Positions 8,547 through 31,409 of a DNA stretch of 64,000 nucleotides are shown here, one piece after another. The notes below the pieces were generated by a model. The model saw only the letters and a program-made list of their open reading frames with translations. It was not told the DNA's origin and did no database searches. The stretch comes from Streptomyces sp. NBC_00708. GTDB taxonomy: Bacteria; Actinomycetota; Actinomycetes; Streptomycetales; Streptomycetaceae. Location: NCBI GenBank assembly GCA_036226585.1, contig CP108997.1, positions 1,984,001-2,048,000 on the forward strand, in the 5' to 3' direction. A program made the translations under genes and the position numbers. The number at the start of each line of letters is the position of its first letter. Within the stretch, counting starts at the first letter, position 1.

Positions 8547-8619
8547 GAATGCCTGCTTTCGCGGTCGGGGGTGGGGGTGGGTCGGGATCAGGTGCGGGGG
8601 CCCGGCGGGCGGGGCGGGG

Positions 8620-9951: not shown

Positions 9952-10005
9952 ACTCGGCCCCCTTCTCCCTGCGTGTTCGCCGGAGCGTAACCGCTGGCGC
10001 TAATC

Positions 10006-10019
10006 TAGAACAAGTTTCA
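10006..10019. promoter_or_regulatory. Perfect KstR-consensus operator in a divergent promoter region
   Basis: TAGAACAAGTTTCA matches all eight fixed positions of the published KstR consensus TnnAACnnGTTnnA. It lies in the 167-base gap between the divergent glycosyltransferase and TetR genes. The TetR protein next door closely resembles KstR, so autoregulation and control of the minus-strand operon is the natural inference. Confidence 0.7.
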
Positions 10020-10118
10020 GACCGGATGGTTCAATGAGCTACGAATCTACCGGCAGGTAGCGTCGGTGCAACGGCCGGATCAGGTGATTCACGCCACGGC
10101 ACGCACCCCGGCCCCGGG

Positions 10119-10739: not shown

Positions 10740-10874
10740 CGGCCGCGGGCACCTGCCATGTGCGGTGCCCACACGCCGCGGGGGCGAGGTGGGGTGCCCT
10801 GCACCATATCGACGACGGCACGGTGTTCATACGGTTCGGCGACATCACAGGAACACGCCGAGGAGCCGGTCACC

Positions 10875-12122: not shown

Positions 12123-12125
12123 ACC

Positions 12126-12914
12126 GTGACCGCACCCCACCCCCTCGGGCAGAAGAGCCCGGCGGACCGGGTGGCCCCCGTGCTCCAGCTGGAGGGACTC
12201 GGCTGGAGCGTCGGCGGCGCCACCATCGTCCAGGACGTCTCGCTGAGCGTCCGCGAGGGCGAGTTCCTCGCCTTCATCGGGCCCAACGGGGCGGGCAAGA
12301 CCTCCCTGTTCAACCTGATCAGCGGGCTCAGCCTGCCCACCGCCGGGCGGATCGAGCTGGACGGCGCCGAGATGACGGACCGGCCCGCGCACGTGCGGGC
12401 CCGGCGCGGGATCGGCCGCACCTTCCAGACCTCCAGCCTCTGGCCCGCGATGACCGTGGCCGACCACGTGAGGCTCGCCGCGCAGGCCGCCCGGGGCGGC
12501 TCGTACCGGCTGTGGCGGCGCGCCGACCCGTACACCGCCGAGGTGGCCGGCGTCCTGGAGCGCACCGGCCTCGGCCACCGGGCCGGGGCGACGGCGGGCG
12601 AACTGTCGCACGGCGAGAAGCGGAAGCTGGAGCTGGCCGTGCTGCTGGTGGGCGAGCCCCGGCTGATGCTGCTCGACGAGCCGATGGCCGGGGTGAGCGC
12701 CGAGGAGGTCCCCGCCCTGACCGAACTCATCCGCACCCTGCACCGGGAGGAGGGGCGCACGGTCCTCATGGTCGAACACCACATGGACGTCCTGCTGGGC
12801 CTCGCGGACCGGCTCGCCGTGATGCACCACGGCCGGCTGCTCGCCCTGGACACCCCGGAGGCGGTCACCGCCGACCCGGTCGTGCAGCAGGCGTACCTCG
12901 GGGAGGGGCTGTGA
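12126..12914 (+). CDS. livG: ABC transporter ATP-binding protein (LivG type)
   Basis: The product has 262 residues, with a GTG start 4 bases after the binding-protein stop. Walker A GPNGAGKTS is at about 52-60, a Q-loop is in RTFQTSSLW, the signature is LSHGEKRKLELA (about 160) and Walker B is LMLLDEPMAG (about 180). The histidine of the H-loop is in VEHHMDVL. The signature LSHGE and long H-loop helix are typical of LivG and not LivF. It would form a heterodimer with the next gene product and power the LivH/LivM channel on the cytoplasmic side. Confidence 0.9.
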   Translation: MTAPHPLGQKSPADRVAPVLQLEGLGWSVGGATIVQDVSLSVREGEFLAFIGPNGAGKTSLFNLISGLSLPTAGRIELDGAEMTDRPAHVRARRGIGRTFQTSSLWPAMTVADHVRLAAQAARGGSYRLWRRADPYTAEVAGVLERTGLGHRAGATAGELSHGEKRKLELAVLLVGEPRLMLLDEPMAGVSAEEVPALTELIRTLHREEGRTVLMVEHHMDVLLGLADRLAVMHHGRLLALDTPEAVTADPVVQQAYLGEGL

Positions 12915-13657
12915 CGGAGCAACCCCTCCTGGACGTACGGGATCTGCGGGTCCTGATCGGCGGCCGGCACATCCTGCACGGCGTCGACCTGGACGTCAGC
13001 GCGCACGGCGTGACCGCGCTGCTCGGCCGCAACGGCGCCGGGAAGACCACCACGGTCCGGGGCATCCTGGGGCTCGTCCCCCGCGCCGGGAGCGTACGGC
13101 TCGACGGCGAGGAGACCGTGGGCCTGCCCACGCACGCCCTGGTCCGGCGCGGTATCGGCTACGCCCCCGAGGACCGGGGGATCTTCGCCGGGCTGACCGT
13201 CGCGGAGAACCTGCGCCTCGCCGAGCGGCGCGGCGCGGGCGAGCCGGCGTACACCCTGGTCCACGAGCTGTTCCCCGAACTCAAGCAGCGAGCACGGCAG
13301 TTGGCCGGAACGCTGTCCGGCGGCCAGCAGCAGATGGTCGCCATCGGGCGCACCCTGCTCAACGCCAACCGGCTGATCATCGCGGACGAGCCCACCAAGG
13401 GCCTGGCGCCCAAGGTCGTGACCGAGGTGGCGCAGGTGCTGGAACGGGCCGCCGAGGCGGTGCCGGTGCTGCTCGTGGAGCAGAACCTCGCCGTGGTGCG
13501 CCGGCTGGCCGGGCACTGCGTGGTCCTCGCCGACGGCCGCACCGCCCACCGGGGCCCGGCCGCCGAGCTGCTGGGCGACGCGGAGGCGGCCCGCACGCTG
13601 CTCGGTGTGGGCCACGGCCCGCTCCCCGCACACCCTTCCGTGAAGGCGGATTCCTGA
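12911..13657 (+). CDS. livF: ABC transporter ATP-binding protein (LivF type)
   Basis: The product has 248 residues. The GTG start overlaps the livG-like stop by 4 bases. Walker A GRNGAGKTT (about 39), signature LSGGQQQMVAIGR (about 136), Walker B LIIADEPTKGLAPK (about 155) and VEQNLAVVRRLA are all diagnostic of LivF. The DEPTKGLAP wording is characteristic of this subfamily. It partners the LivG-type ATPase. Confidence 0.9.
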   Translation: MTEQPLLDVRDLRVLIGGRHILHGVDLDVSAHGVTALLGRNGAGKTTTVRGILGLVPRAGSVRLDGEETVGLPTHALVRRGIGYAPEDRGIFAGLTVAENLRLAERRGAGEPAYTLVHELFPELKQRARQLAGTLSGGQQQMVAIGRTLLNANRLIIADEPTKGLAPKVVTEVAQVLERAAEAVPVLLVEQNLAVVRRLAGHCVVLADGRTAHRGPAAELLGDAEAARTLLGVGHGPLPAHPSVKADS

Positions 13658-14544
13658 TGTCCACCCTCGTCCTGCTCACCATGACCGGTCTCGGTCTGGG
13701 GGCCCTCTACTTCCTCGTCGCGTCCGGACTCTCGCTGATCTTCGGCCTGATGGACGTGCTCAACTTCGCGCACGGGGCGCTGCTGTCCATCGGCGCGTAC
13801 GGCACCTGGTGGGCGGCGTCCGGGAATCTGCCCGGCGCGGGCCCCGGCGGCGCCGGCTTCGTGCTGGCGGTCCTGTTCGGTACGGCGGTGGGCACCGCCG
13901 CCGCCGTGCTCCTCGAACTCGCGGTCGTCCGCCCGCTCTACACCCGGCCGCGCGAGCAGGTGCTCGCCACGGTCGGGGTGGGGCTCGCGGTGCCGGCGCT
14001 GCTCTCCGGCATCTGGGGCTCGGACGCCCACACCTTCCCCGGGCCCGAGGCACTGTCCGGCACCTTCGGGCTGCTGGGCGCGCAGGTCCCGGTCAACCGG
14101 CTGGTCCTGGTGGGGGCGGCGGTCGTGGTGCTGGTGGCGCTGCGGCTGTTCCTCGGCCGGACCCGGCACGGCCTGGTCGTCCGGGCGGGCGTCGAGGACC
14201 GGGCGATGGTCACCGCGCTCGGCATCGACGTCCGCAGGGCGTTCACGCTGGTCTTCGCGATCGGCGGCTGCGCGGCGGCGCTGGGCGGGGCGCTCGGCGG
14301 GCTGTACTTCGGCTCGGTCGACCCGCGCCAGGGCACCTCGCTGCTGATCTTCGCGTTCGTCGTCGTGGTCACCGGCGGCATGGGGTCGGTGACCGGCGCC
14401 GCCGTGGCGTCCGTGGTCATCGGCCTGGTCCAGCAGTTCGCCAACTACTACACCGCAGCGGGGCTCGGCGACCTGGCGGTCGTCGTCCTGCTCGCCGTGC
14501 TGCTGCTCGTCCGGCCGCGCGGACTGACGGGGAGGCTCGCGTGA
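13657..14544 (+). CDS. livH: Branched-chain-type ABC transporter permease (LivH type)
   Basis: The product has 295 residues and its ATG shares one base with the preceding stop (TGATG). It has about eight membrane segments. The start contains the LivH hallmark GLGALYFLVASGLSLIFGLMDVLNFAHGA, and the cytoplasmic coupling loop reads GLVVRAGVEDRAMVTALGIDVRR. It would form the channel with the LivM-type protein encoded next. Confidence 0.9.
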   Translation: MSTLVLLTMTGLGLGALYFLVASGLSLIFGLMDVLNFAHGALLSIGAYGTWWAASGNLPGAGPGGAGFVLAVLFGTAVGTAAAVLLELAVVRPLYTRPREQVLATVGVGLAVPALLSGIWGSDAHTFPGPEALSGTFGLLGAQVPVNRLVLVGAAVVVLVALRLFLGRTRHGLVVRAGVEDRAMVTALGIDVRRAFTLVFAIGGCAAALGGALGGLYFGSVDPRQGTSLLIFAFVVVVTGGMGSVTGAAVASVVIGLVQQFANYYTAAGLGDLAVVVLLAVLLLVRPRGLTGRLA

Positions 14545-15665
14545 GCACCGCCACCGACACACCCGACCGCACCGCCGGCCGCCCGGCCACCGTCCCGGCT
14601 CCGGCCGGGCGGGCCCGGCTGCTGCGCTGGTGGCCCGCCGCCGTCCTGCTGGTGCTGGTGGCCGCACCGTTCAGCGCGGTGCCGGTGCCGGGGCTGCTCG
14701 ACGGGCCGCTCGGCTCGGCCGGCAGTCTGCAACTCCTGGCCACCTGCCTGCTGTTCGGCGCCCTGGCCACCGGCTACGACCTGCTGCTCGGGCGGACCGG
14801 GCTGCTCTCCTTCGGGCACGCCCTGTACTTCGCGGCGGGCAGCTACGCCACCAATCTGTTCCTGCTGGAGGCGGGCCTGCCGTTCGCGCTCGCCACGGTC
14901 CTCGGGCTGCTCTTCGGGATCGCGCTCGCGCTGGCCCTGGGCTCGGTGAGCCTGCGCGTCACCGGCATCGGCTTCTCCATGGTGACCCTCGCCTTCGCCC
15001 AGGCCGGCTCGATCCTGGTGTCCCGGGACCCCGGCGGCGTCACCGGCGGCGAGGAGGGCCGGGCGGCCCCGTCCGACCTGCTGCCGTCCTCGCTGGTCGG
15101 GATCGACAACACCGCCAACCTGTACTGGATCGCGCTGGCCTACCTGGTCCTGACCCTGGGCGTCGTCCACTGGGCGGTCCGCTCCCCCACCGGCCGCGTC
15201 TGGGAGGGCATCAAGGAGAACGAGCGCCGGGTGGAGGTGCTGGGCCTGAAGCCGTACGGCTTCAAGCTCACCGCCTTCGTCGTCGCGGGCGGACTCGCGG
15301 CCCTCGGCGGGATCGTGCACCTTCTCCTGACGGGCGGTTCGACCCCGCAGACCACCACCTCCGACTTCACGCTGTCGCTGCTGGTGATGGTGGTGCTCGG
15401 CGGCTCGGGCACCCGCTGGGGTCCGATGGTCGGCGGCATCCTCTACACCTGGGCCGACCACCGGCTCGGCGACCTGGCCGGATCGGGCGCGGTCGCGGAT
15501 CTGCCGGCGGTGCTGCGCGTACCGCTCTCGCAGCCGCTGTTCCTGCTGGGCGTGCTGTTCGTGGCCGTGGTACATCTGCTGCCCGGCGGCCTGGCCCGGC
15601 TGCCGTCCCGGCTGGGACGGGCCCTGGGGGCAGCCTCGAACCGTAAGGAGACCGGAGTCAGTTGA
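14541..15665 (+). CDS. livM: Branched-chain-type ABC transporter permease (LivM type)
   Basis: The product has 374 residues. The GTG start overlaps the LivH stop by 4 bases. A proline/arginine-rich N-terminal extension of about 30 residues precedes eight to nine membrane segments. LivM features include LSFGHALYFAAGSYATNLFL, RVTGIGFSMVTLAFAQ and the coupling loop GRVWEGIKENERRVEVLGLKPYGFKL. It ends in overlap with the hydrolase gene. Confidence 0.9.
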   Translation: MSTATDTPDRTAGRPATVPAPAGRARLLRWWPAAVLLVLVAAPFSAVPVPGLLDGPLGSAGSLQLLATCLLFGALATGYDLLLGRTGLLSFGHALYFAAGSYATNLFLLEAGLPFALATVLGLLFGIALALALGSVSLRVTGIGFSMVTLAFAQAGSILVSRDPGGVTGGEEGRAAPSDLLPSSLVGIDNTANLYWIALAYLVLTLGVVHWAVRSPTGRVWEGIKENERRVEVLGLKPYGFKLTAFVVAGGLAALGGIVHLLLTGGSTPQTTTSDFTLSLLVMVVLGGSGTRWGPMVGGILYTWADHRLGDLAGSGAVADLPAVLRVPLSQPLFLLGVLFVAVVHLLPGGLARLPSRLGRALGAASNRKETGVS

Positions 15666-16555
15666 GCCCGCTCGCGGAGTACGAAGAGATCGAAGTCCCC
15701 GTGCGCGGGGGCATGCTGGCAGCCCTGCGCTGGCCGGCCGCCGACCCGGACGCGCCGGTGGTGGTGGCCCTGCACGGCATCACCTCCAACGCCCTGTCCT
15801 GGGCGGCGGTGGCCCGGCTGCTGGCCGGCCGGGTCACGCTGGTCGCCCCGGATCTGCGCGGCCGGGCCGGGAGCGCGCGGCTGCCCGGTCCGTACGGGAT
15901 CGTCGCGCACACCGACGACATCGCCGCCCTGGCCGACGGTCTGGGCCGGGGCCCGGTGGTCCTCGCGGGCCACTCGATGGGCGCGTTCGTGGCGGCCCTG
16001 GCGGCGGTGCGCCACCCGGACCGCTTCGGGCCGCTGCTGCTGGTGGACGGCGGCATCGGCTTCCCGGCGCCGACGCACCTGACGCCGGACGAGCTGATGA
16101 CGGCGGTGATCGGCCCGGCGATGGACCGGCTGTCGATGACCTTCCCGGACCGGGCCGCGTACCGCGCGTTCTGGCAGGCGCATCCGGCGTTCGCCGGCGC
16201 CTGGTCCGACGAGGTGGACGCGTACATCCAGCGCGACCTGACCGGCCAGGAACCGGAGCTGCGTTCGTCGTGCCGGATCGAGGCGATCCGCACGGACGGG
16301 GTCGGCCTGTTCGACGAGGAGGTCCTGTCGGCGGTGCGCAAGCTGCCCGTCGACGCGACGCTGCTGTGGGCGGCGCGCGGGCTGATGGACGAGGAGCAGG
16401 GCCTGTACGACGAGGGCAGGCTGGCCGCCGCCGGTCTGGACGGGACCCGGCTGGAGCCGGTCGCGGTGAAGGACGTGAACCACTACACGGTTCTGACGGG
16501 CGACCGGGGCGGCCGGGAGATCGCGGAGCGTCTGGTGGCGCTGGCGCGCGGCTGA
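15662..16555 (+). CDS. Alpha/beta hydrolase, last gene of the ABC importer operon
   Basis: The product has 297 residues. The TTG start overlaps the LivM stop by 4 bases (TTGA). The fold is clear: HGITSN oxyanion loop (about 39), DLRGRAGS, nucleophile elbow GHSMGAF with Ser near 104, and the catalytic histidine in VNHYTVL near 271. Tight overlap with the transporter suggests it hydrolyses the imported solute, for example an ester, amide or lactone. That would argue that the transporter carries such a compound and not only leucine. A strong bidirectional hairpin ends the operon. Confidence 0.85.
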   Translation: MSPLAEYEEIEVPVRGGMLAALRWPAADPDAPVVVALHGITSNALSWAAVARLLAGRVTLVAPDLRGRAGSARLPGPYGIVAHTDDIAALADGLGRGPVVLAGHSMGAFVAALAAVRHPDRFGPLLLVDGGIGFPAPTHLTPDELMTAVIGPAMDRLSMTFPDRAAYRAFWQAHPAFAGAWSDEVDAYIQRDLTGQEPELRSSCRIEAIRTDGVGLFDEEVLSAVRKLPVDATLLWAARGLMDEEQGLYDEGRLAAAGLDGTRLEPVAVKDVNHYTVLTGDRGGREIAERLVALARG

Positions 16556-16565
16556 GATCCCGTAC

Positions 16566-16598
16566 GAGCAGGGCCCGGCAGCACGCCGGGCCCTGCTC
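16566..16598. terminator. Bidirectional hairpin between hydrolase and PHB-esterase genes
   Basis: Perfect 14-bp stem (16566-16579 with 16585-16598) and a 5-base loop. It lies between the stops of two convergent genes. Confidence 0.75.
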
Positions 16599-16606
16599 TC
16601 CGTGCG

Positions 16607-17842
16607 TCAGGCGGTGCAGCCGCTGTCGGCGATGACGAAGTAGCCCGCGGGTGTCTCCTTCAGGGTGTGGCTGACGAAGACGTTGTACAGGCCCATGTTC
16701 TGGTTGGAGCCGTTGGCGTAGACGTACCCGCCGGACATGTGCGCCCGGCCGGCGGTGACATGGGCGTAGTTGGTGGCGGTGTAGCACTGCGCGGGGTCGG
16801 GGTCGCCCGGATCACCGGGGTCGCCCGGATCGGTGCCGGTGCCGCCGTCCAGGCCCCAGAAGACGCCCGTGTAGTACGTGGAGCAGAGGGTGTTCAGGAA
16901 GTACGCGGCCGTCGAGCCGCACTGCTGGGCGCCCGAGCCGGGGCCGACGGGCAGTCCGTGGCCCATGCCGGAGACCGAGTACATCTCCACGGCGGGCTTT
17001 CCCGAGGCGTCGTTGTAGACGGTGCGGGTGGTGCTGCCGGGGAGGCTGTCCGTGGCGGACGGGGTCTGGCTGATGCCCCACACATTGGTCCACTGGTCGC
17101 GCAGGGCCGTGGCGTTGGCCGGGTAGACCGTGTAGTCCGAAGTTCCCTGCCAGATCGCGACCTTGGGCCAGGGACCGCTGTAACCGGGGTAGGCGGCCCG
17201 GACCTTGTCGCCCCACTGCGCGGGCGTCAGCTTCTGCGGGCCCGTCTGGCAGCCCGAGGCGGCGGCCTGGCTCGTCGCGCACTGGGCGGGCAGCCCGGAG
17301 GCCACCGAGCCGCCCGCGAAGACGTCCGGGTAGGCGGCGAGAAGGTCGGCGGTCATCCCGCCGCCCGCCGAGAGCCCGGTGACGTACACCCGGCGCCCGT
17401 CGGAGCCGTAGGTCTTCTTCGCGTAGTCGACCATCTGCACGATCGACGCGGCCTCGCCCTTGCCCCGGGTGTCCTCGTTCGGATCGAACCAGCCGAAGCA
17501 GGACAGCGCGTTGTTGGCCGAGGTGGTCTGCGGGAAGACGACGGCGAAGCCCCACGCGTCGGCGTACTTCGGCCAGCCGGAGTTGGTGTAGTACGCGTCG
17601 GCGGTCTGCGTGCAGCCGTGCAGGGCGACGACCAGGGGGGCGTTCGCGGGGAGTCCTGCCGGGGTGTACGCGTACATCTGGAGGTTGCCGGGGTTGGAGC
17701 CGAAGCCGGTCACCTGCTGGAGGCCGGCGGCAGCGGCGGCGGGCTGCGCGGCGGTGGTGGCGCTCAGCGTCGCCGCGAGCAGTCCGAGGGCGGCGGCGGA
17801 CGCGAGGCGCCGCAGCAGACGTTTCAGGATCGGTGGTCGCAC
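16607..17842 (-). CDS. Secreted PHB depolymerase family esterase with C-terminal accessory domain
   Basis: The product has 411 residues from the GTG at 17842, with GGGAG upstream. A Sec signal peptide (arginine-rich start, alanine-rich core, cleavage near AAQPAAAAAG) shows export. The catalytic domain has the oxyanion motif ALHGCTQTADAYY, nucleophile motif GLSAGGGMT (Ser near 157), an aspartate in GTSDYTVYP and the histidine in GMGHGLPVGP. This is the order of the LpqC/type-1 PHB depolymerase and feruloyl esterase family. A GDP-repeat linker (about 335-347) leads to a 60-residue domain rich in Tyr/Asn/Gly (ATNYAHVTAGRAH, SHTLKETPAGYFV), probably a binding domain found on Streptomyces exo-enzymes. 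The divergent hydroxybutyrate dehydrogenase gene supports a PHB substrate. Confidence 0.86.
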   Translation of the reverse strand: MRPPILKRLLRRLASAAALGLLAATLSATTAAQPAAAAAGLQQVTGFGSNPGNLQMYAYTPAGLPANAPLVVALHGCTQTADAYYTNSGWPKYADAWGFAVVFPQTTSANNALSCFGWFDPNEDTRGKGEAASIVQMVDYAKKTYGSDGRRVYVTGLSAGGGMTADLLAAYPDVFAGGSVASGLPAQCATSQAAASGCQTGPQKLTPAQWGDKVRAAYPGYSGPWPKVAIWQGTSDYTVYPANATALRDQWTNVWGISQTPSATDSLPGSTTRTVYNDASGKPAVEMYSVSGMGHGLPVGPGSGAQQCGSTAAYFLNTLCSTYYTGVFWGLDGGTGTDPGDPGDPGDPDPAQCYTATNYAHVTAGRAHMSGGYVYANGSNQNMGLYNVFVSHTLKETPAGYFVIADSGCTA

Positions 17843-18125
17843 GGGTGGTTTCTCCCTGCCGTGGGGGTACGGGTTGCTGCCGGAACCTACGAGCGGGGCC
17901 GGTCCCCGCCCATGGGACCGGTGGCCACACCCCGGCGCCCGCTGTGTGCCCCGACTCCCTTGCGCGGCGGGGCGCCGCGGTGGACCCGGAGCGAGGCGCC
18001 CCGCCGGTCGCGGCCCGGCGGCCGGGCGCCGGGCCGCACCATGTACGCCCGCACCATGCCCCGGTACGCGGGTGTGTGCACCGGCGCCGTGTGACGCGGG
18101 GCGTCGCGTACCTACGGTGACGGCC

Positions 18126-18944
18126 ATGGAGACTTCCCGCAGACCGGATCACCAGCCCGCCGCCGCCGTGTCCGGCGGCCCCGCGCAGGCGCCCGCAGAA
18201 CCCGTCCTGGCCGGGCGCACCGCGCTGGTGACCGGGGCGGCGAGCGGGATCGGGCGGGCCTGTGCGCAGGTGCTCGCCGCCGCGGGCGCCCATGTGCACG
18301 TCGTGGACCGGGCCGGTGAGGCCGCCGAGCGGCTGGCGAAGGAGATCGGCGGGACGCCCTGGGTGGTGGACCTGTCCGAGCCGGCGGTCGTGGACACCCT
18401 GCCCGCCGACGTGGACGTCGTGGTCAACAACGCGGGCATCCAGCACGTGGCCCCGGTGCACGAGTTCCCGCCGGACCGGTTCGCCCTGATCCAGCGCGTG
18501 ATGGTGGAGACCCCGTTCCGCGTCTTGCGCAGGACCCTGCCGGGCATGTACGAACGCGGCTGGGGGCGCGTGGTCAACATCTCGTCGGTGCACGGCCTGC
18601 GCGCGAGCCCGTACAAATCGGCCTATGTGACGGCCAAGCACGCACTGGAGGGGCTGAGCAAGGTGGTCGCGCTCGAAGCGGCGGAGCACGGGGTGACGAG
18701 CAACTGCGTCTGCCCCGGGTACGTGCGCACCCCGCTGGTGGAGAACCAGATCGCCGACCAGGCCCGCACGCACGGCATCTCCGAGGAGGAGGTGGTGGGG
18801 CGGGTCATGCTGGAGCGCAGCGCGGTCAAGCGGCTGATCGAACCGGCGGACGTGGCCGAGGCGGTCCTGTGGCTGTGCGGCCCGCGCACCGGGCACATCA
18901 CCGGCTCCTCGCTCTCCATGGACGGCGGCTGGACCGCGAACTGA
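18126..18944 (+). CDS. bdhA: 3-hydroxybutyrate dehydrogenase (SDR)
   Basis: The product has 272 residues with a poorly conserved 30-residue N-terminal extension. Rossmann motif TGAASGIG is at 36-43, NNAGIQHVAPVHEFP at about 103, the catalytic serine in ISSVHGL, and YVTAK supplies the Tyr-x3-Lys pair near 167. NNAGIQHVAPVEEFP-like wording and the GLRASPYKSAY segment are typical of D-3-hydroxybutyrate dehydrogenase, which oxidises 3-hydroxybutyrate to acetoacetate with NAD. It is divergent from the secreted PHB esterase gene (283-base intergenic region) and 32 bases ahead of a GAF/PucR regulator. Confidence 0.84.
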   Translation: METSRRPDHQPAAAVSGGPAQAPAEPVLAGRTALVTGAASGIGRACAQVLAAAGAHVHVVDRAGEAAERLAKEIGGTPWVVDLSEPAVVDTLPADVDVVVNNAGIQHVAPVHEFPPDRFALIQRVMVETPFRVLRRTLPGMYERGWGRVVNISSVHGLRASPYKSAYVTAKHALEGLSKVVALEAAEHGVTSNCVCPGYVRTPLVENQIADQARTHGISEEEVVGRVMLERSAVKRLIEPADVAEAVLWLCGPRTGHITGSSLSMDGGWTAN

Positions 18945-23830: not shown

Positions 23831-23862
23831 TTCTAAAGTCAACGAATTCTTTTTTAGACTTC
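23831..23862 (-). promoter_or_regulatory. Possible promoter/operator upstream of the DUF3291 gene
   Basis: This is an unusually AT-rich patch in the surrounding GC-rich DNA. On the minus strand it contains TTGACT (23842-23837), a perfect -35 hexamer, but no good -10 follows at usual spacing. AAGTC (23836-23840) and GACTT (23857-23861) form an inverted pair that could be an operator for the HTH regulator encoded immediately upstream. Confidence 0.3.
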
Positions 23863-24510
23863 AGTGCTCTCCCCGGGCTCTTCCAGCGCGACGCAGCACC
23901 CGTCCGGCAGCGGGTCCATCTCCGCGCTCCAGCCCTCGGCGCCGGGCATCCCGGCGAGCAGCCCCTGAATAGCGGCGAGGTTCATCCCGCAGACCAGGGC
24001 GGGGAACTGCTCGGCCAGCGCGTGGAAGGGGCAGTTGTTGAGCCGCACCTTGCCGCAGTCCCGAAAGGGCTCGTAACCGCGCTCGCGCAGCGCGTCGAGG
24101 GGGTCGTCCGCCGTGTCCGCCGCCACACCGGCCGCGCGGGCCGCCGCCTGCAACTCGGCGTCGAGCCCGGCCCGTTCGACGACCTCGGCGAGCAGCCGGC
24201 CTGCGGTGTCGTACGACCGGGGCGGTACGGAGACGGCGTGCTCGCCGTCCGCCCGCCGGTACAGCTTCGAGGGCCGCCCCGCGCCGGGGCCACTGCGCCC
24301 GGAGAGCCGCTTGAAGCTCACCTCCAGCAGCCCGGCGTCGACCAGCTTGTCCAGGTGGAACGCGGCCGTCGCCCGCGCAACCCCGACGGCGTCCGCCGCC
24401 GCGTCCCGGGTGACGTCGCCGTGCGTCCCGCTGACATACCGGTACAGCCCGCGCCGCACGGGGTCCCCGAGCACGGCCAGCGCGTCCAGGGCGGCATCTT
24501 CACTGCTCAC
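23854..24510 (-). CDS. ArsR/SufR-like HTH transcriptional regulator with conserved cysteines
   Basis: The product has 218 residues from the GTG at 24510 (VSSEDAALDALAVLGDPVRRGLYRYV). An N-terminal winged helix occupies about 5-80 (DPVRRGLYRYV, ATAAFHLDKLVDAGLLEV). A C-terminal domain contains a cysteine series: DCG, then after 7 residues NCPFH, then after 13 residues VCGMN, and a late GCC. This resembles the cluster-binding tail of SufR-like regulators, where cysteines hold an iron-sulfur cluster. Metal or redox sensing is therefore an inference from spacing. The downstream partner is the DUF3291 gene. Confidence 0.75.
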   Translation of the reverse strand: MSSEDAALDALAVLGDPVRRGLYRYVSGTHGDVTRDAAADAVGVARATAAFHLDKLVDAGLLEVSFKRLSGRSGPGAGRPSKLYRRADGEHAVSVPPRSYDTAGRLLAEVVERAGLDAELQAAARAAGVAADTADDPLDALRERGYEPFRDCGKVRLNNCPFHALAEQFPALVCGMNLAAIQGLLAGMPGAEGWSAEMDPLPDGCCVALEEPGESTEV

Positions 24511-24564
24511 ACCGGCGAGTCTAGGCCGCCGCCGGCACCGGTTCCGGGGGCGCTGCCCCCGCAC

Positions 24565-24666
24565 CCCCGCGCCTCAAACGCCGGCGGGGCTGGATATTGC
24601 CTCCGTGGCCGCGGATCTGCGACTGCGGGGGCATCATTCAGCCCCGCCGGCGTTTGAGGCGCGGGG
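24565..24666. repeat. 28-bp perfect inverted repeat, Streptomyces intergenic type
   Basis: Left arm 24565-24592 and right arm 24639-24666 are perfect inverted copies separated by 46 bases. Short hairpins of the GGGGC-N3-GCCCC type flank the pair on both sides (near 24547-24559 and 24669-24683). This looks like a dispersed intergenic palindrome of the kind common in Streptomyces and could also terminate transcription. It fills the space between the HTH regulator start and the B12 riboswitch. Confidence 0.7.
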
Positions 24667-24715
24667 TCCGGGGCGGAGCCCCGGTCCCCGGACCGCCCGG
24701 TAGACTCCCCCAGTC

Positions 24716-24815
24716 GTCATCATGCCCGTTCAGGGGAAAGCCGGTGCAAACCCGGCACTGACCCGCAGCCGTAACCACCGCCCCGCGGTGGAAGTCGGAA
24801 TGCCCTGTCCGCGTC
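24716..24815 (+). promoter_or_regulatory. Cobalamin (AdoCbl) riboswitch
   Basis: The conserved core is plain. CAGGGGAAAGCCGGTG at 24731-24746 is followed by CAAACCCGGCACTGACCCGC, then CAGCCGTAA, a variable GC hairpin, and AAGTCGGAATGCCC at about 24792-24805. These match the B12-box order (AGGGAA-x-CCGGTG, CCCGCxxCxGT, GxCxGGAxxxCC). It lies about 120 bases upstream of the first gene of an ECF-transport operon, so it should repress that operon when coenzyme B12 is plentiful, probably by translational control since no U-rich terminator is seen. Confidence 0.92.
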
Positions 24816-24933
24816 GTGACCGGCTCGCGCCGTCGGGACCCCCCGGCGGCCGGCACCGTCGAGGTATACGGAGCCGGAGCCTGGTGCCTGTGTGTGCCTG
24901 TGCCCGGTTCCCCCAGGAGAGGCACCGCCCGCC

Positions 24934-26190
24934 ATGACCGTACGCCGCAGCGCCGCCGCGCTCGCCGCCACCGCCGCCGCGCTCTGCGCGGCCGCCGCCC
25001 CGGCCGCCGTCGCCGCGCCGTCCCCGTCTCCCTCCGCGGCGCTGCCCTCGGGCCTGTACGGGACGAACGACCCGACGTACGACGGGGTGTGGCGGCAGTC
25101 GCTCGCGTTCCTCGCGCAGCAGACCGCCGGTGTGACGCCCGCCGCGAAGGCGGTGGACTGGCTGACCGGCCAGCAGTGCGACAGCGGCGCGTTCCCCGCG
25201 TACCGCGCGGACGCCTCCGCGCCCTGCACCGACAAGACGATGGTCGACACGAACGCGACGGCCGCCGCCGTCCAGGCCCTGCGCACCGTCGGCGGGCACC
25301 AGGACGCCGTCGCCAACGCGGTCAGCTGGCTCAAGTCCGTCCAGAACGAGGACGGCGGCTGGGGCTACACCGCCGGCAGCCCCAGCGACGCGAACTCCAC
25401 GTCCATCGTGATCGGCGCCCTCGCGCGGGCCGGCGAGAAGCTGGGCGACGTGACGACCCACGGCGGCAAGACCCCGTACGCCGCACTGCTCACGTTCTCC
25501 ATCCCCTGCGGCGGCAAGGACGGCGGCGCCTTCGCCTACCAGCCCGACAAGGCCGGCAAGCTCGCCGCCAACGGTGACGCCACCGCCGCCGGTGTCCTCG
25601 GCGCGCTCGGCAAGGGCCTGGTCGTCGCGGACAACGCGGCCGTGAAGGACCCCGCCTGCCACAAGGGCTCCCCGCTGGAGCCCGAGCAGGCCGCGCAGAA
25701 CGGCGCCTCCTACCTCACCACCGCCCTCGCGAAGAGCGGCCACCTCGACGCGGCGCCGATGCCCGGCGCGGAGGACAGCAAGCCGCAGCCCGACTTCGGC
25801 AACACCGCCGACGCGGTCGTCGCGCTGTCCGCCGCCGGCCACAAGGACAAGGCCGCCGCCTCCGTGACCTGGCTGGAGAAGAACTCCGCGGCCTGGGCGA
25901 AGCAGAGCGGCCCCGCCGCCTACGCCCAGCTCATCCTGGCCGCCCACGCGACCGGCACCGACGTCCACGACTTCGGCGGCACCGACCTGGTCGCCCGGCT
26001 CAACGCGACCGGGCCCGAGCCCGCCGCCGTGAAGAAGCCGACGGCGACCGCCACCGAGGAGGAGGAGCAGAAGGACAGCGGCGACGGCGACGGCATCGGC
26101 GGCGTCTGGTGGTTCGTCGGGATCGGGCTCGCGGTCGGCGCGGGCGCCGGCTTCCTGATCAGCGGCCGCCGCAAGAACCAGCAGCTGTGA
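24934..26190 (+). CDS. Membrane-anchored surface protein with prenyltransferase/intrinsic-factor-like alpha/alpha barrel
   Basis: The product has 418 residues. The ATG at 24934 is preceded by AGGAGAGG. Signal peptide (residues 1-28) with cleavage near AVAAP; mature helical-hairpin repeats follow, such as AVDWLTGQQCDSGAFPAY (about 72), AVSWLKSVQNEDGGWGY (about 130) and ASVTWLEKNSAAW (about 310). An acidic stalk (EEEEQKDSGDGDG) leads to one C-terminal membrane helix and a basic tail. The repeat fold is that of squalene cyclases and also of human intrinsic factor and transcobalamin. Placed first behind a B12 riboswitch and before an ECF importer, it is best explained as an extracellular cobalamin-binding protein. 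Confidence 0.82.
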   Translation: MTVRRSAAALAATAAALCAAAAPAAVAAPSPSPSAALPSGLYGTNDPTYDGVWRQSLAFLAQQTAGVTPAAKAVDWLTGQQCDSGAFPAYRADASAPCTDKTMVDTNATAAAVQALRTVGGHQDAVANAVSWLKSVQNEDGGWGYTAGSPSDANSTSIVIGALARAGEKLGDVTTHGGKTPYAALLTFSIPCGGKDGGAFAYQPDKAGKLAANGDATAAGVLGALGKGLVVADNAAVKDPACHKGSPLEPEQAAQNGASYLTTALAKSGHLDAAPMPGAEDSKPQPDFGNTADAVVALSAAGHKDKAAASVTWLEKNSAAWAKQSGPAAYAQLILAAHATGTDVHDFGGTDLVARLNATGPEPAAVKKPTATATEEEEQKDSGDGDGIGGVWWFVGIGLAVGAGAGFLISGRRKNQQL

Positions 26191-26897
26191 ACCGCACCGC
26201 ACGAGCGGTCGCGCTCCTGGTCGCCGGCGCCGTCCTGGCCGTGCTCGGCGCGGGCACGGCGCAGGCCGCGGGCTACCGCTACTGGTCGTTCTGGGAGGGC
26301 TCGGCGGGCGGCTGGTCGTACGCCACCCAGGGGCCGTCGCTCGTGCGGCCCGAGGACGGCTCGGTGCAGGGCTTCCGGTTCGCGGTGAGCGCGGACTCGC
26401 AGGACGCCTCCCAGCCGCGCCGCGCCCCCGATTTCGGGAAGATCTGCGCGGACACCCCGGCGAAGGACGGCAGCAAGCGCGTCGCACTCGTCATCGACCC
26501 GGGCACCGCGGCCGACGCGCCGGACGGGGAGACCCCGCCCGCACTGCGGACCGCGTGCGCCCGGGTCCCAAAGGACGCGAGCAGCGCGGAGGCCCTGGCC
26601 TCGGTGGCCAAGCCGCTGCGCTACGACACGAGCGCCATGCTCTGCGCGATCTCCGGCTACCCGGCCTCCGGCTGCGGCGAGCAGGTCTCGGGCCACGGCG
26701 ACGGAGGCTCGGACAACGGCGGCTCCGACGGCGGCGGATCGGACGGCGGCAGCAAGGCCCCCACCTCGGCGTCCGCCGCCTCCTCCGGCGAAGGCGACGG
26801 TGACGGCGGCCCGTCCGCCGGGGTCCTCGTCGGGATCGGCGCCGTGCTGCTCCTCGGCATCGCCGCAGTCGCGCAGGCCCGCCGCCGCCGCGGATGA
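26187..26897 (+). CDS. Secreted, membrane-anchored protein of the B12 uptake operon
   Basis: The product has 236 residues. The GTG start overlaps the previous stop by 4 bases. Signal peptide (1-27, cleavage near GTAQAAG), then a domain with YRYWSFWEGSAGGWSYATQGP (about 28-48) and conserved cysteines. A Gly/Ser/Asp-rich stalk and a C-terminal membrane helix (VLVGIGAVLLLGIAAVA) with an RRRR tail complete it, the same topology as the preceding protein. The family is an SCO5960-like protein of unknown function found beside actinobacterial B12 ECF transporters; a partner in surface capture is inferred. Confidence 0.78.
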   Translation: MNRTARAVALLVAGAVLAVLGAGTAQAAGYRYWSFWEGSAGGWSYATQGPSLVRPEDGSVQGFRFAVSADSQDASQPRRAPDFGKICADTPAKDGSKRVALVIDPGTAADAPDGETPPALRTACARVPKDASSAEALASVAKPLRYDTSAMLCAISGYPASGCGEQVSGHGDGGSDNGGSDGGGSDGGSKAPTSASAASSGEGDGDGGPSAGVLVGIGAVLLLGIAAVAQARRRRG

Positions 26898-28054
26898 CCG
26901 GCCCGACGGCCGGCCGCACGGACACCGCGACACACCGGCTCCCCGCCTGGCGCGCCCCCGCCGCCACCCGCTCCAACGCGCTGCCGGCCGGGGCGTGGTG
27001 GCTGTGGGCGCTGGGCCTGGCCACCGCCGCGTCCCGGACCACCAACCCGCTGCTGCTCGGCCTGCTGGTCGGTGTCGCCGGTTATGTGGTGGCCGCGCGC
27101 CGCACGGACGCGCCGTGGGCCCGGTCGTACGGGATGTTCATCCGGATCGGGCTCTTCGTGATCGCGGTCCGGCTGCTGTTCTCCGTCTTCCTCGGCTCCC
27201 CGATCCCCGGCACGCACACCCTGTTCACGCTGCCCGAGGTGCCGCTGCCGGACTGGGCGAAGGGCGTCCGGATCGGCGGCCGGGTCACCGCCGAGCAGCT
27301 GCTGTTCGCGCTGTACGACGGGGCGAAGCTGGCGACCCTGCTGATCTGCGTCGGCGCGGCGAACTCCCTCGCCAACCCGGCCCGGCTGCTGAAGTCGCTG
27401 CCCGGCGCGCTGTACGAGGCCGGGGTCGCCGTCGTCGTCGCGATGACGTTCGCGCCGAACATGGTCGCCGACGTGCTGCGGCTGCGCACCGCCCGCCGGC
27501 TGCGCGGCCGGCCGACCGGCGGGGTGCGGGCCGTCCTCCAGATCGGGCTGCCGGTCCTGGAGGGGGCGCTGGAACGGTCGGTCGCCGTGGCCGCCTCCAT
27601 GGACGCGCGCGGCTACGGCCGCACCGCGCGGGTCCCGGCCGCCGTCCGGCACACCACCAACGTCCTCACGCTCGGCGGCCTGCTCGGCGTGTGCGCCGGT
27701 ACGTACGGACTGCTGGCCGCCGAGGGCGCCGGCTACGGGGTCCCGGTGCTCGTCGCCGGTCTCGCCGCGGCGATGGCGGGGCTCCGGCTGGGCGGGGCGC
27801 GTTCGGTGCGGACCCGCTACCGGCCCGACCGGTGGGGCGTACGGGCCTGGCTGGTCGCCGGGTCCGGCGCGGCGGTCGCGGTGGCGATGATCTGGGCCGG
27901 GAACGCCGACCCCGCCGCGCTGCACCCCGGCGTCGTCCCGCTCACCGCCCCCGTGCTGCCGCTGTGGCCGGCCGCCGCCGTACTGATCGGCCTGCTGCCC
28001 GCGGTGGTCGCGCCCGTCCCGCCCTCCCCCACAGGCTTCGAGGAGCAGGTGTGA
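26894..28054 (+). CDS. ecfT: ECF transporter transmembrane component (EcfT type)
   Basis: The product has 386 residues. The ATG start overlaps the previous stop by 4 bases. Several membrane segments lie in the first 200 residues. The CbiQ/EcfT coupling motifs are visible: a cytoplasmic helix with RLRTARRLRGR and the late AASMDARGYGRTAR, which is the A-R-G signature contacting the ATPases. About 150 extra C-terminal residues add further hydrophobic segments. It links the S-component to the fused ATPases. Confidence 0.86.
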   Translation: MTGPTAGRTDTATHRLPAWRAPAATRSNALPAGAWWLWALGLATAASRTTNPLLLGLLVGVAGYVVAARRTDAPWARSYGMFIRIGLFVIAVRLLFSVFLGSPIPGTHTLFTLPEVPLPDWAKGVRIGGRVTAEQLLFALYDGAKLATLLICVGAANSLANPARLLKSLPGALYEAGVAVVVAMTFAPNMVADVLRLRTARRLRGRPTGGVRAVLQIGLPVLEGALERSVAVAASMDARGYGRTARVPAAVRHTTNVLTLGGLLGVCAGTYGLLAAEGAGYGVPVLVAGLAAAMAGLRLGGARSVRTRYRPDRWGVRAWLVAGSGAAVAVAMIWAGNADPAALHPGVVPLTAPVLPLWPAAAVLIGLLPAVVAPVPPSPTGFEEQV

Positions 28055-29844
28055 TCCGGTTCGACGATGTTTCGGTGCGGTACGAGGGTGCGGAGCGCCC
28101 CACCCTGTCGGGGGTCGACCTGACGGTCCCGGAAGGTGAACTGGTGCTGCTCGTCGGCCCGTCCGGGGTCGGCAAGTCGACGCTGCTCGGTGCCGTTTCG
28201 GGCCTGGTGCCGCACTTCACGGGCGGCACGCTGACCGGACGGGTCACCGTGGGCGGGCGCGACACCCGTACGCACAAGCCCCGGGAGCTCGCCGATCTGG
28301 TCGGCACGGTGGGCCAGGACCCCCTGGCGCACTTCGTGACGGACACCGTCGAGGACGAGCTGGCCTACGGCATGGAGTCGCTGGGCCTGGCCCCGGACGT
28401 GATGCGGCGGCGGGTGGAGGAGACCCTCGACCTGCTGGGCCTGGCCGGGCTGCGCGACCGCCCGATCGCCACCCTGTCCGGCGGACAGCAGCAGCGGGTC
28501 GCGATCGGCTCGGTCCTCACCCCGCACCCCCGGGTCCTGGTGCTCGACGAGCCGACGTCCGCGCTGGACCCGGCGGCGGCCGAGGAGGTCCTCGCGGTCC
28601 TCCAGCGGCTCGTCCACGACCTGGGCACGACGGTCCTGATGGCGGAACACCGTCTGGAGCGCGTGGTGCAGTACGCGGACCAGGTCGTCCTGCTCCCCTC
28701 GCCGGGCGCCGCCCCGGTGATGGGGGCGCCCGCCGACGTCATGGCGGTGTCCCCGGTGCACCCGCCGGTCGTCGCGCTGGGGCGGCTCGCGGGCTGGCAG
28801 CCGCTGCCGCTCTCGGTCCGGGACGCCCGGCGCAGGGCCGGCGGTCTGCGCGACCGGCTGGCGGAGGCGGGTGCGGTGGGCGGACAGCCCGCGGCCGGGA
28901 CCGCCGGTCCGGAAGACGCGGGCACGGCACCTTCGCGCACCACTCCGGAAGGGCCCGACACCCCGCACCCCGCCACACCGGACGCCCCCGGCCCCCTGCC
29001 CCGCCGCGGCGCCCTCGCCCGGCTGTTCCGGCGCGCCCCGCACGAGACCCCCGTCACGAACCCCGCCGCCGCCCCCGGCACGGCCCCCGCCGCCCGCGTC
29101 GAGCGCCTCGGCATCCGACGCGGCCGCGTCGAAGCGCTGCGCCGGGTGACGCTCACCGTCCGGGCCGGCGAGACCGTGGCCCTGATGGGGCGCAACGGCG
29201 CGGGCAAGTCCACGCTGCTCGGCGCCCTCGTCGGCATGGTCGAGCCCACCTCCGGCACCGTCCTGACCGGCGGCCTGGCCCCGCACCGCACCCCGCCGCG
29301 CGAGATGGTGCGCCGCGTCGGTCTCGTACCGCAGGAGCCGCGCGACCTGCTGTACGCGGACACGGTCGCCGCCGAGTGCGCGGCGGCCGACGCCGACGCG
29401 GGGGCGGAGCCGGGCAGCTGCCGGGCCCTGGTCTCCGAGCTGCTGCCGGGGGTGGCGGACGACACCCACCCCCGCGATCTGTCCGAGGGGCAGCGCCTCG
29501 CGCTGGCCCTGGCCCTCGTGCTCACCGCCCGGCCGCCGCTGCTCCTGCTCGACGAGCCGACCCGGGGTCTGGACTACGCGGCGAAGGCCCGGCTGGTCGG
29601 GGTGCTGCGCGCGCTGGCCGACGAGGGGCACGCCATCGTGCTCGCCACCCATGACGTGGAGCTGGCCGCCGAGCTGGCGCACCGGGTGGTGATCCTCGCC
29701 GACGGGGAGGTCGTCGCGGACGGGCCGACCGCCGAGGTCGTGGTGTCCTCGCCCGCGTTCTCCCCGCAGACCGCCAAGATCCTCGCCCCGCAGGAATGGC
29801 TCACCGTCTCCCAGGTCCGCGCGGCCCTGGGGGGTGGCGCGTGA
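28051..29844 (+). CDS. ecfA: Fused ECF transporter ATPase (EcfA1-EcfA2)
   Basis: The product has 597 residues containing two ABC ATPase domains in one chain; the GTG start overlaps the EcfT stop by 4 bases. Domain 1: Walker A GPSGVGKST (about 36), signature LSGGQQQRVAIG (about 143), Walker B VLVLDEPTSALD. Domain 2: Walker A GRNGAGKST (about 381), signature LSEGQRLALALALV (about 476), Walker B LLLLDEPTRGLD. A Pro/Ala/Thr-rich linker (about 275-345) joins them. Such fusions replace the usual EcfA-EcfA' heterodimer. Confidence 0.9.
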   Translation: MIRFDDVSVRYEGAERPTLSGVDLTVPEGELVLLVGPSGVGKSTLLGAVSGLVPHFTGGTLTGRVTVGGRDTRTHKPRELADLVGTVGQDPLAHFVTDTVEDELAYGMESLGLAPDVMRRRVEETLDLLGLAGLRDRPIATLSGGQQQRVAIGSVLTPHPRVLVLDEPTSALDPAAAEEVLAVLQRLVHDLGTTVLMAEHRLERVVQYADQVVLLPSPGAAPVMGAPADVMAVSPVHPPVVALGRLAGWQPLPLSVRDARRRAGGLRDRLAEAGAVGGQPAAGTAGPEDAGTAPSRTTPEGPDTPHPATPDAPGPLPRRGALARLFRRAPHETPVTNPAAAPGTAPAARVERLGIRRGRVEALRRVTLTVRAGETVALMGRNGAGKSTLLGALVGMVEPTSGTVLTGGLAPHRTPPREMVRRVGLVPQEPRDLLYADTVAAECAAADADAGAEPGSCRALVSELLPGVADDTHPRDLSEGQRLALALALVLTARPPLLLLDEPTRGLDYAAKARLVGVLRALADEGHAIVLATHDVELAAELAHRVVILADGEVVADGPTAEVVVSSPAFSPQTAKILAPQEWLTVSQVRAALGGGA

Positions 29845-30665
29845 ACGCCGTGCGCAGACGTGGCCGGCCGGTCCGGCTGGGGCCCCGGGCGATCGTGGCG
29901 CTGGTGCTGATCAGCGCGATCGGGGTGGCCGCCTTCGGGTGGCCGCTGCTCGCGGACCGGGACTCGGGGCTCGCGCACGCGCAGGACGCGCCGTGGCTGT
30001 TCGCCGCGCTGCTGCCGCTGCTCGTCGGGGTGGTGGTCGCGATGATCGCGGACGCCGGGCTCGACGCGAAGGCGGTGGCGATGCTGGGGGTGCTGGCCGC
30101 GGTCGGAGCCGCGCTGCGCCCGCTGGGGGCGGGCACGGCGGGCCTGGAGCCGATGTTCTTCCTGATGGTGCTGAGCGGCCGGGTGCTGGGGCCGGGGTTC
30201 GGCTTCGTGCTGGGGTCCGTGACGATGTTCGCCTCCGCGCTGCTGACCGGCGGGGTCGGGCCGTGGATGCCGTTCCAGATGCTGTCGATGAGCTGGTTCA
30301 CGATGGGCGCGGGCCTGCTGCCGGGCCCGGACCGGCTGCGCGGGCGCGGCGAGCTGCTGATGCTCGCGGCCTACGGGGCGGTCGCGTCGTTCGCGTACGG
30401 GACGATCATGAATCTGTACGGGTGGACGATCGTGCCCGGCCTCGCCTCGGGCATCTCGTTCCGGCCGGGCGACCCGCTGGGCGAGAACCTGGTCCGCTTC
30501 CTCGCGTACTGCGCGACGACCTCGCTCGGCTGGGACCTGGGCCGGGCCGTGCTCACGGTGGTCCTGACGCTGACGGTCGGGGCGCCGCTGCTGAAGGCGC
30601 TGCGGCGGGCCACGCGGCGCGCTTCCTTCGAGGCCCAGGTCACATTCGGCGCCCGGGGCGAGTGA
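29841..30665 (+). CDS. ECF transporter S-component, probable cobalamin-binding (CbrT-like)
   Basis: The product has 274 residues. The GTG start overlaps the ATPase stop by 4 bases. It has about six to seven membrane helices, with the small-residue GPGFGFVLGSVTMFASALLTGGVGPW stretch typical of S-components near 115-140 and EcfT-contact alanine/glycine patterns near the start. The B12 riboswitch and operon composition make cobalamin (CbrT group) the likely substrate; sequence alone would leave other vitamins possible. Confidence 0.82.
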   Translation: MNAVRRRGRPVRLGPRAIVALVLISAIGVAAFGWPLLADRDSGLAHAQDAPWLFAALLPLLVGVVVAMIADAGLDAKAVAMLGVLAAVGAALRPLGAGTAGLEPMFFLMVLSGRVLGPGFGFVLGSVTMFASALLTGGVGPWMPFQMLSMSWFTMGAGLLPGPDRLRGRGELLMLAAYGAVASFAYGTIMNLYGWTIVPGLASGISFRPGDPLGENLVRFLAYCATTSLGWDLGRAVLTVVLTLTVGAPLLKALRRATRRASFEAQVTFGARGE

Positions 30666-30971: not shown

Positions 30972-31409
30972 GTGTCGTTCGCCCGTAACCTCATCGCCAA
31001 GCCCCGCACCGCCCGTCGCAAGGCCGCCGTCGCCGGCGCCACCGTGCTGCTGGGAGCCACCGGCATCGGCCTGGGTGTCTCCCCGGCCATGGCGGCCCCG
31101 ACCGCCGCGCCGACGTCCGCCGGCAGTGCCCAGGACACGGCGAAGCAGATGATCGGTGACGACGCCCAGTTCCAGTGCTTCAGCAACATCGTCAGCCACG
31201 AGAGCGGCTGGAACCCGAGCGCGACCAACGCCTCCTCCGGTGCCTACGGCCTGGTCCAGGCGCTGCCCGGCTCGAAGATGGCGTCCGCCGGTTCCGACTG
31301 GAAGACCAACCCCGGCACGCAGATCAAGTGGGGCATGGACTACATGAACTCCCGCTACGGCAGCCCCTGTGGCGCCTGGTCCTTCTGGCAGGCCCACAAC
31401 TGGTACTGA
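30972..31409 (+). CDS. Secreted lytic-transglycosylase-like (SLT/aggregation-promoting-factor) protein
   Basis: The product has 145 residues, GTG start. A long basic N-region and signal peptide end near SPAMAAP (residue about 39). The mature domain of about 95 residues starts AKQMIGDDAQFQCFSNIVSHESGWNP; the glutamate in HESGW (about 76) is the likely catalytic acid. GAYGLVQALPGSKM, a WKTNPGTQIKWGMDYM segment and a WSFWQAHNWY ending match single-domain Streptomyces transglycosylase-like hydrolases. It would cleave peptidoglycan glycan strands outside the cell, for example at germination or sporulation. Confidence 0.84.
   Translation: MSFARNLIAKPRTARRKAAVAGATVLLGATGIGLGVSPAMAAPTAAPTSAGSAQDTAKQMIGDDAQFQCFSNIVSHESGWNPSATNASSGAYGLVQALPGSKMASAGSDWKTNPGTQIKWGMDYMNSRYGSPCGAWSFWQAHNWY

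Follow-up and report, generated by a model that had tools for sequence, protein, structure and literature searches.

The cobalamin-riboswitch operon

The window analyzed here is a stretch of 64,000 nucleotides of Streptomyces sp. NBC_00708 (contig CP108997.1, positions 1,984,001 to 2,048,000), and the subject of this study is an operon of five genes within it (Table 1), which follows a cobalamin (vitamin B12) riboswitch and encodes two putatively surface-anchored proteins, i.e., members of the SCO2321 and SCO2322 families, ahead of an energy-coupling factor (ECF) importer. The host genome (7.65 Mb) is Streptomyces-like and the closest named homologues among the matches listed are from Streptomyces. 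The initial annotation had described a B12 riboswitch and five genes overlapping by 4 bases, and both the RF00174 core and the gene coordinates confirm this; the four junctions read, in order, GTGA, ATGA, GTGA, and GTGA. In searches with the Rfam model RF00174 (gathering score 31.5 bits) the riboswitch of the window scored 31.3 bits (E 2.9e-6 in a scan of 501 bases), i.e., 0.2 bit below the gathering score. It was not listed by the default Rfam scan of the whole window and was recovered, again below the cut-off at 31.3 bits, in the whole-genome scan. Its homology to this family suggests that the operon is controlled by adenosylcobalamin.

Export and membrane anchoring of the products of genes 1 and 2, as well as the hydrophobic stretches of those of genes 3 and 5, were assigned by hydropathy only. 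The signal peptides and C-terminal anchors proposed earlier for the first two proteins agree with hydrophobic stretches at both ends of each (residues 8-26 and 391-409 in gene 1; residues 7-25 and 211-229 in gene 2). The naming of the remaining products as EcfT, a fused EcfA pair, and an S-component is also supported. EcfT (PF02361, 18.4 bits, cut-off 25; eight hydrophobic stretches) and the S-component (PF12822, 25.9 bits, cut-off 30.7; its sole Pfam match at E<=1) score below the Pfam cut-offs, so that their naming leans also on hydropathy and on their conserved position. EcfT, EcfA, EcfA', and the S-component occur together in one operon, as is the case for a dedicated (group I) ECF importer.

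Table 1. Positions of the operon, its domains, its neighbors, and the riboswitches of a second cluster (the last two rows are numbered within locus L041, all others within the window).
Feature	Position	Strand	Remarks
Cobalamin riboswitch core	24734..24805	+	RF00174 model positions 45-169; ~130 bases 5' of gene 1
Gene 1, SCO2321 family	24934..26190	+	418 amino acids; ATG start, AGGAG upstream
Gene 1, barrel (toroid) part	25051..26028	+	~residues 40-365; limits approximate, predicted
Gene 2, SCO2322 family	26187..26897	+	236 amino acids
Gene 2, residues 29-68	26271..26390	+	Putative counterpart of S4-S5 in the beta domain of transcobalamin; first in the chain here
Gene 2, residues 96-159	26472..26663	+	Putative counterpart of S1-S2-helix-S3 in the beta domain of transcobalamin; second in the chain here
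Gene 2, C-terminal membrane helix	26817..26873	+	After GPSAG; weak GPS-CTERM match (NF040681, 19.3 bits, cut-off 28)
Gene 3, EcfT-like transmembrane coupling protein	26894..28054	+	386 amino acids
Gene 4, fused EcfA-EcfA' ATPase	28051..29844	+	597 amino acids; two ABC_tran stretches
Gene 5, S-component, ECF_trnsprt type	29841..30665	+	274 amino acids
Helix-turn-helix regulator (flanking)	23854-24564	-	PF12840
Small secreted transglycosylase-like protein (flanking)	30972-31406	+	PF01464
Riboswitch, L041	11041-11174		Precedes the 952-amino-acid protein
Divergent riboswitch, L041	10867-10941	-	Precedes the 472-amino-acid barrel and beta protein

Conservation of the operon

Homologues of both surface proteins are numerous, with at least 2796 for SCO2321 and at least 3508 for SCO2322 out of 8000 scored candidates each. 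When 396 genomes of the phylum were searched with the SCO2322 model, 54 gave matches (13 over the cut-off), and we chose 15 loci among the matching genomes. All 15 contain matches to EcfT, EcfA, and the S-component, although at L054 the genes for the surface proteins diverge from those for the importer, and at four (L042, L045, L046, and L048) no barrel match was seen. As judged from coordinates, 12 of the 15 have a riboswitch match ahead of the barrel or beta gene (five over the gathering score); for L042 and L049 the scan was limited to matches reaching the gathering score, and L053 gave none. At L049 (G171, same genus; positions 5996-13137) the order is beta, EcfT, EcfA, S-component, barrel, DUF4430, and thus actinobacterial-type and ordinary DUF4430 beta proteins occur together in this cluster.

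A collection of named genomes yielded at least 506 confirmed relatives, of which the best 80 loci were kept. Gene 2, EcfT, EcfA, and the S-component follow each other in order in 73 of these 80; the other seven are all shorter than 9 kb, with their ends missing. A barrel was found in 35 of the 80 by blastp at 1e-4, a search that very divergent barrels could escape, and all but three of these loci are titled Streptomyces or Kitasatospora. An RF00174 search was made for 44 of the 80, with matches listed down to ~30 bits and contigs assigned to loci by coordinates and strand. The association of the operon with a B12 riboswitch, as annotated initially, holds widely: a match lies upstream of the first gene and on the same strand in at least 36 of the 44, 20 of them over the gathering score, at a distance of 111-385 bases (median 179) from the first gene match. 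This tally combines 27 loci among the matches listed, which include all 20 over the gathering score (e.g., L117, 36.8 bits; L135, 32.3 bits; L147, 42.8 bits; L149, 41.9 bits), with a closer scan of 10 remaining loci, which gave nine more, none over it. Among the eight loci without a match is L121, whose sequence starts inside gene 1. The recurrence of this gene order over the phylum is more than chance.

The barrel protein (gene 1)

Gene 1 belongs to SCO2321_fam (NF053823, 609 bits, cut-off 300) and its product comprises a signal peptide, repeats of the alpha/alpha-toroid type, an acidic stalk, and a C-terminal membrane helix. The helical-hairpin repeats noticed earlier are recovered as prenyltransferase/cyclase-type repeats of the alpha/alpha toroid superfamily (PF13243, 36.3 bits, above the cut-off of 26.1). 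Three polar motifs of the barrel are nearly invariant in an alignment of 119 proteins that includes the window's own, i.e., D-T-N-A-T (117 of 119), S-D-A-N-S-T (all 119), and N-T-A-D-A-V (116 of 119). PF01122, the animal cobalamin-binding family, gave no match to gene 1 at E<=1 in the Pfam search. Matches to the SCO2321 model below the cut-off were also seen in two control genomes, Corynebacterium glutamicum and Methanosarcina acetivorans.

The permuted beta-grasp-like protein (gene 2)

Gene 2 belongs to SCO2322_fam (NF040672, 232 bits, cut-off 85), and its product consists of a signal peptide, a beta-grasp-like domain, a Gly/Ser stalk, and a C-terminal membrane helix, whose weakly GPS-CTERM-like end (26817-26897) may mean that the anchor is sorted or processed in a particular way. 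The AlphaFold2 model has ten-residue means of the predicted local distance difference test of 91-98 over residues 31-160, with strands at 29-39, 42-45, 59-68, 96-104, 121-128, 144-146, and 152-155 and a helix at 133-140. Read from residue 96 round to residue 68, this model gives S1-S2-helix-strand-S3-S4-(short strand)-S5. Transcobalamin-type SLBB domains have been tabulated as S1 S2 H (insert) S3 S4 S5 (PMC1949818; this and the other papers identified by PMC number are cited here from excerpts). The rotated strand order of the model is compatible with that of this type, and the order S1-S2-helix-insert-S3-S4-S5 appears only after rotation; in the excerpt of the same paper circular permutation is mentioned only for the E1 UFD domain. 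In domains of this type the insert is a beta-hairpin whose aromatic residue stacks on the base; in gene 2 only one short strand (144-146) lies between the helix and S3. Its Y146 is invariant in a close alignment (121 rows) and is not among the conserved positions of a wider one (132 rows), in which the invariant positions include W33, W43, and R64.

Gene 2 matches no family at E<=1 in a local copy of Pfam, and Pfam searches with its family gave no match to PF14478 (DUF4430). Together the 132 homologues matched 21 Pfam families, none of them in more than 10 members, and we judge these matches to be due to chance. For SCO2322 proteins a newer Pfam family, PF28005, has been precomputed, and its description may contain further information. 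A sequence search of the PDB with gene 2 returned mostly antibody-fragment and linker-like matches, which were rejected.

Circular permutation and the link to DUF4430

The relation of gene 2 to the transcobalamin beta domain is seen through relatives in which the two halves of the domain stand in the opposite order. In four genomes (G134, G284, G366, and G390) both halves of the SCO2322 model fall in one open frame with their order reversed. Among 30 of the matching loci, all 13 full-length family matches, i.e., 12 from the same genus (own included) and one from the same class, are permuted with the 'YW..W' half first, whereas 16 of the 17 partial matches, all 17 from outside the class, are unpermuted with this half last; for the remaining one the script gave no order, and it is unpermuted by eye. 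Two paralogues in the host genome are also unpermuted. Compared with the profile of the unpermuted family (19 sequences), the SCO2322 profile (128 sequences) aligns over 61 columns (E 2e-16), and after rotation (125 sequences) over 124 columns (E 2.2e-26). As read from these alignments, the SCO2322 family is a circular permutation, visible at the level of sequence.

DUF4430 (PF14478) is the name given to the C-terminal domain of transcobalamin (PMC4350170), and matches to it occur in 51 of the 296 genomes of the phylum searched. The unpermuted family aligns with 18 DUF4430 domains with a score of 34.0 (P 3.8e-5), the maximum in 20 column-shuffled controls being 15.7, and trimmed sets (16 unpermuted and 11 DUF4430 sequences) align colinearly over 98 columns (P 6.4e-6). 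An earlier comparison (P 2.6e-4), made before cleaning, contained two mis-extracted rows and was set aside. The rotated SCO2322 family aligns directly with DUF4430 over 43 columns only (score 31.0; ten controls at most 15.2). Searched against the PDB, the DUF4430 profile gave marginal matches to 3u7z (E 0.015), transcobalamin-1 (E 0.098), and transcobalamin-2 (E 0.2), with an unrelated translation factor at the top (E 0.013), and a PDB sequence search with the unpermuted profile gave no match. Gene 2 thus looks like a homologue of the transcobalamin beta domain (DUF4430), a relation supported via the unpermuted family. DUF4430 was also observed in very large open frames (~1240-1940 codons) in six genomes outside the class (G027, G054, G142, G249, G260, and G271), and in several of these another DUF4430 match lies ~2-3 kb away.

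Fused forms in the same genome

A second ECF cluster with a B12 riboswitch is located ~4.85 Mb from the window (L041, G000:C1:6850000-6869999, positions 9330-18598) and encodes, in order, a protein of 952 amino acids, a beta protein of 320 amino acids, EcfT, an EcfA pair, and an S-component. In the 952-amino-acid paralogue two barrel stretches follow an unpermuted beta domain, and a C-terminal anchor is recognizable by eye; the protein matches PF01122 below threshold (14.0 bits, cut-off 25). The 320-amino-acid protein has a weak match to a sortase signal (20.7 bits, cut-off 30), and relatives of it are present in 13 of 61 genomes (own included). Divergent from these genes, and behind its own riboswitch, stands a gene for a protein of 472 amino acids, secreted by eye, in which the barrel precedes the beta domain, as in transcobalamin. 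Its barrel is similar to that of gene 1 (P 1.3e-5 over 129 columns, score 45.6; ten shuffled controls 10.2-26.1) and its beta part to DUF4430 (P 2.3e-6); the similarity of the latter to the unpermuted family is weak (P 0.0059). This protein is present in 9 of 81 family genomes (own included). The cluster is adjoined by metE (by eye) with a riboswitch of its own.

Cobalamin economy of the host

The host genome contains ten RF00174 matches, eight over the cut-off, which by position belong to metE (by eye), a PF01497 binding protein, cobD, cobN, nrdA, CbtA, a small Cys-rich frame, and the three systems described here. The riboswitch before the PF01497 binding lipoprotein (L002, G000:C1:403979-404164) scores 87 bits. 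The closest NCBIfam names of this protein are of the siderophore and F420-0 type, with BtuF weak, and it is possible that it belongs to a BtuF-type B12 importer able to mask phenotypes of the ECF operon. Another riboswitch (L004, G000:C1:6855917-6856049, 44.9 bits) precedes the Cys-rich frame of 128 codons, and a weak match below the cut-off (25.9 bits) precedes the CbtA-type transporter. For S. lividans two RF00174 riboswitches have been reported, named by other genes (PMC8079986). We considered B12 auxotrophy of the host and rejected it, since cobN is present (1157 bits) with a riboswitch before it; together with the several riboswitch-linked systems, this indicates B12 synthesis by the host and possibly several uptake routes.

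Proposed role of the surface proteins

Based on these observations, we lean towards the view that genes 1 and 2 encode a surface corrinoid clamp that feeds the ECF importer and is active at low adenosylcobalamin. Under plentiful B12 the riboswitch would keep expression low, and when adenosylcobalamin becomes scarce the leader would permit it, as expected from the homology to the Rfam family. The products of genes 1 and 2 would then be exported and held at the membrane by their C-terminal helices, as their hydropathy suggests, and the alpha/alpha barrel and the permuted beta-grasp domain would together bind a single corrinoid in the manner of the two transcobalamin domains. The clamp would pass the corrinoid on to the S-component, with EcfT and the EcfA pair driving uptake. 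The polar motifs of the barrel and W33, W43, and R64 of the beta domain are candidate corrinoid contacts. The position of S4-S5 at the N-terminus alters the entry and exit of the chain and, more speculatively, could turn the lid towards the membrane. We thus infer a corrinoid as ligand, a single clamp of two proteins, and a hand-over to the S-component. The analogy of gene 1 to the animal carriers, put forward in the initial annotation, is strengthened beyond what was proposed by the resemblance of gene 2 to the beta domain of these carriers and by the fusions of barrel and beta domain elsewhere in the genome. The idea that gene 1 by itself is the carrier is not supported, considering its nearest solved relatives, the absence of a PF01122 match, and the many loci without a detectable barrel.

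Several findings weigh against the clamp. The nearest solved relatives of gene 1 by sequence are squalene-hopene cyclases (E 1.7e-13), the model of gene 2 has no structural relative in linear structure searches (Foldseek, VIA; PDB), and 41 of the 80 named loci encode gene 2 and the whole importer with no detectable barrel nearby. With regard to the second point, a permutation would mask a structural match in the PDB. The kinship with cyclases is what would be expected if gene 1 were a surface enzyme with a cyclase- or glycosidase-like barrel and the operon no binding relay. D-x-D-D is the catalytic motif of the cyclases, and it is seen in just one of the 119 aligned gene 1 proteins. Furthermore, gene 1 combines ~330 barrel residues with an N-terminus that resembles a signal peptide and a membrane stretch at the other end, and its operon partners are a beta-domain protein and an importer, which makes an enzymatic role very improbable.

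The loci without a barrel would be accommodated if gene 2 were the true receptor, docking on the S-component. Rather than forming half of a clamp, the barrel would then be dispensable and confined to some lineages, where it could, for example, store B12 or bind corrinoids attached to proteins or to the wall. Twelve of 14 genomes without a local barrel have no match to the SCO2321 model at E<=1e-6, and in the barrel-less loci the riboswitch match precedes gene 2. However, the barrel gene, where present, is adjacent (with a 4-base overlap in the window), barrel and beta domain are fused in paralogues of the same genome, and both domains of transcobalamin contact B12 (PMC1796856). We therefore regard a receptor consisting of gene 2 only as rather unlikely.

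It is also conceivable that the cargo is not cobalamin, and that the importer takes up cobinamide, other cobamides, a lower-ligand base, or another compound needed when B12 is short. The specificity of an S-component is unreadable from sequence, and B12 riboswitches of the host also precede genes unrelated to transport, such as metE (by eye) and nrdA, as well as cobalt or biosynthesis genes. Against this, the sole Pfam match of the S-component at E<=1 is PF12822 and not a cobalt-type component, and the presence of a barrel together with beta domains of the transcobalamin type suggests a complete corrinoid, so that a cargo other than cobalamin seems improbable. For cobalt itself, the same Pfam result and the presence of a CbtA-type cobalt transporter elsewhere in the genome disfavor such an importer.

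Returning to the clamp, a more specific and more tentative version, which we put forward with clearly less confidence, is that the two proteins form a membrane-tethered counterpart of transcobalamin, the lid of which underwent a single permutation in an ancestor of the class of Streptomyces and Kribbella so that it can open for hand-over, the lid alone being enough in lineages that lost the barrel or never possessed it. If so, ECF importers with dedicated extracellular capture proteins would exist, and the varying presence of the barrel would form a natural experiment on the contribution of each domain of transcobalamin. How B12 is concentrated ahead of an ECF importer in Gram-positives, which are without an outer-membrane receptor, is poorly known. 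If the clamp is real, the SCO2321 and SCO2322 families of NCBIfam, named only after those genes, gain a testable role, and a split bacterial version of the animal B12 carriers becomes available that would allow separate study of barrel and lid. The circular permutation would then also account for the failure of the domain and structure searches performed here to place SCO2322 with transcobalamin. Finally, such a clamp would imply an investment in the recapture of B12 by an organism that produces it.

Flanking elements

Between the upstream regulator (Table 1) and the riboswitch lies a long, near-perfect inverted repeat (24567-24665). The genome holds 14 copies of its arm, CCCGCCGGCGTTTGAGG, and none of the reversed pattern used as control; it is a dispersed repeat or a terminator element. 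Matches to microRNA families at 24562-24669 were rejected, since they sit on the long hairpin of this 14-copy genomic sequence.

Comparison with known systems

The general idea of B12 capture by such proteins was already put forward in 2007 for other groups. Burroughs et al. (2007, PMC1796856) described the transcobalamin clade from animals, low-GC Gram-positives, planctomycetes, and euryarchaea and predicted B12 scavenging by toroid and SLBB proteins encoded in CbiO/CbiQ operons, mainly in low-GC Gram-positives. The bacterial proteins of this clade are, according to the excerpt, like those studied here in being secreted or anchored beta-grasp proteins with a toroid partner and an operon for a CbiO/CbiQ-type ECF importer. 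In contrast, toroid and beta domain are here separate anchored proteins, the beta domain is permuted, and PF14478 is not matched. In addition, bacteria with toroid and SLBB proteins were reported to be usually without key enzymes of B12 synthesis (Burroughs et al., 2007), whereas the present host possesses cobN. Our literature search, which covered listings and excerpts of some papers, revealed no function for SCO2321 or SCO2322, in B12 uptake or otherwise, no split actinobacterial form, and no SLBB domain with a permutation; the one paper containing 'SCO2321' concerns, by its title and abstract, a transdermal peptide. The riboswitch or the importer may have been predicted earlier. New are, apparently, the split and permuted actinobacterial form and its occurrence in a B12-producing host.

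ECF-CbrT of Lactobacillus delbrueckii likewise comprises an ECF module and an S-component, there for cobalamin; the excerpt of the paper mentions no extracellular capture protein (PMC5997447). CbrT is encoded in an nrdJ-cbrS-cbrT-pduO cluster (PMC5997447), whereas here the energizing module lies inside the operon. Squalene-hopene cyclases and the beta subunits of prenyltransferases share the alpha/alpha toroid repeats (PF13243) with gene 1, which differs from the cyclases in the missing D-x-D-D (118 of the 119 aligned proteins) and in looking secreted and anchored. The animal carriers transcobalamin, haptocorrin, and intrinsic factor also combine a barrel with a beta-grasp domain, in a domain order that is shared with the 472-amino-acid protein of the same genome. 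These carriers are single soluble polypeptides that are taken up via receptors, whereas in the operon described here two anchored proteins accompany an ECF importer.

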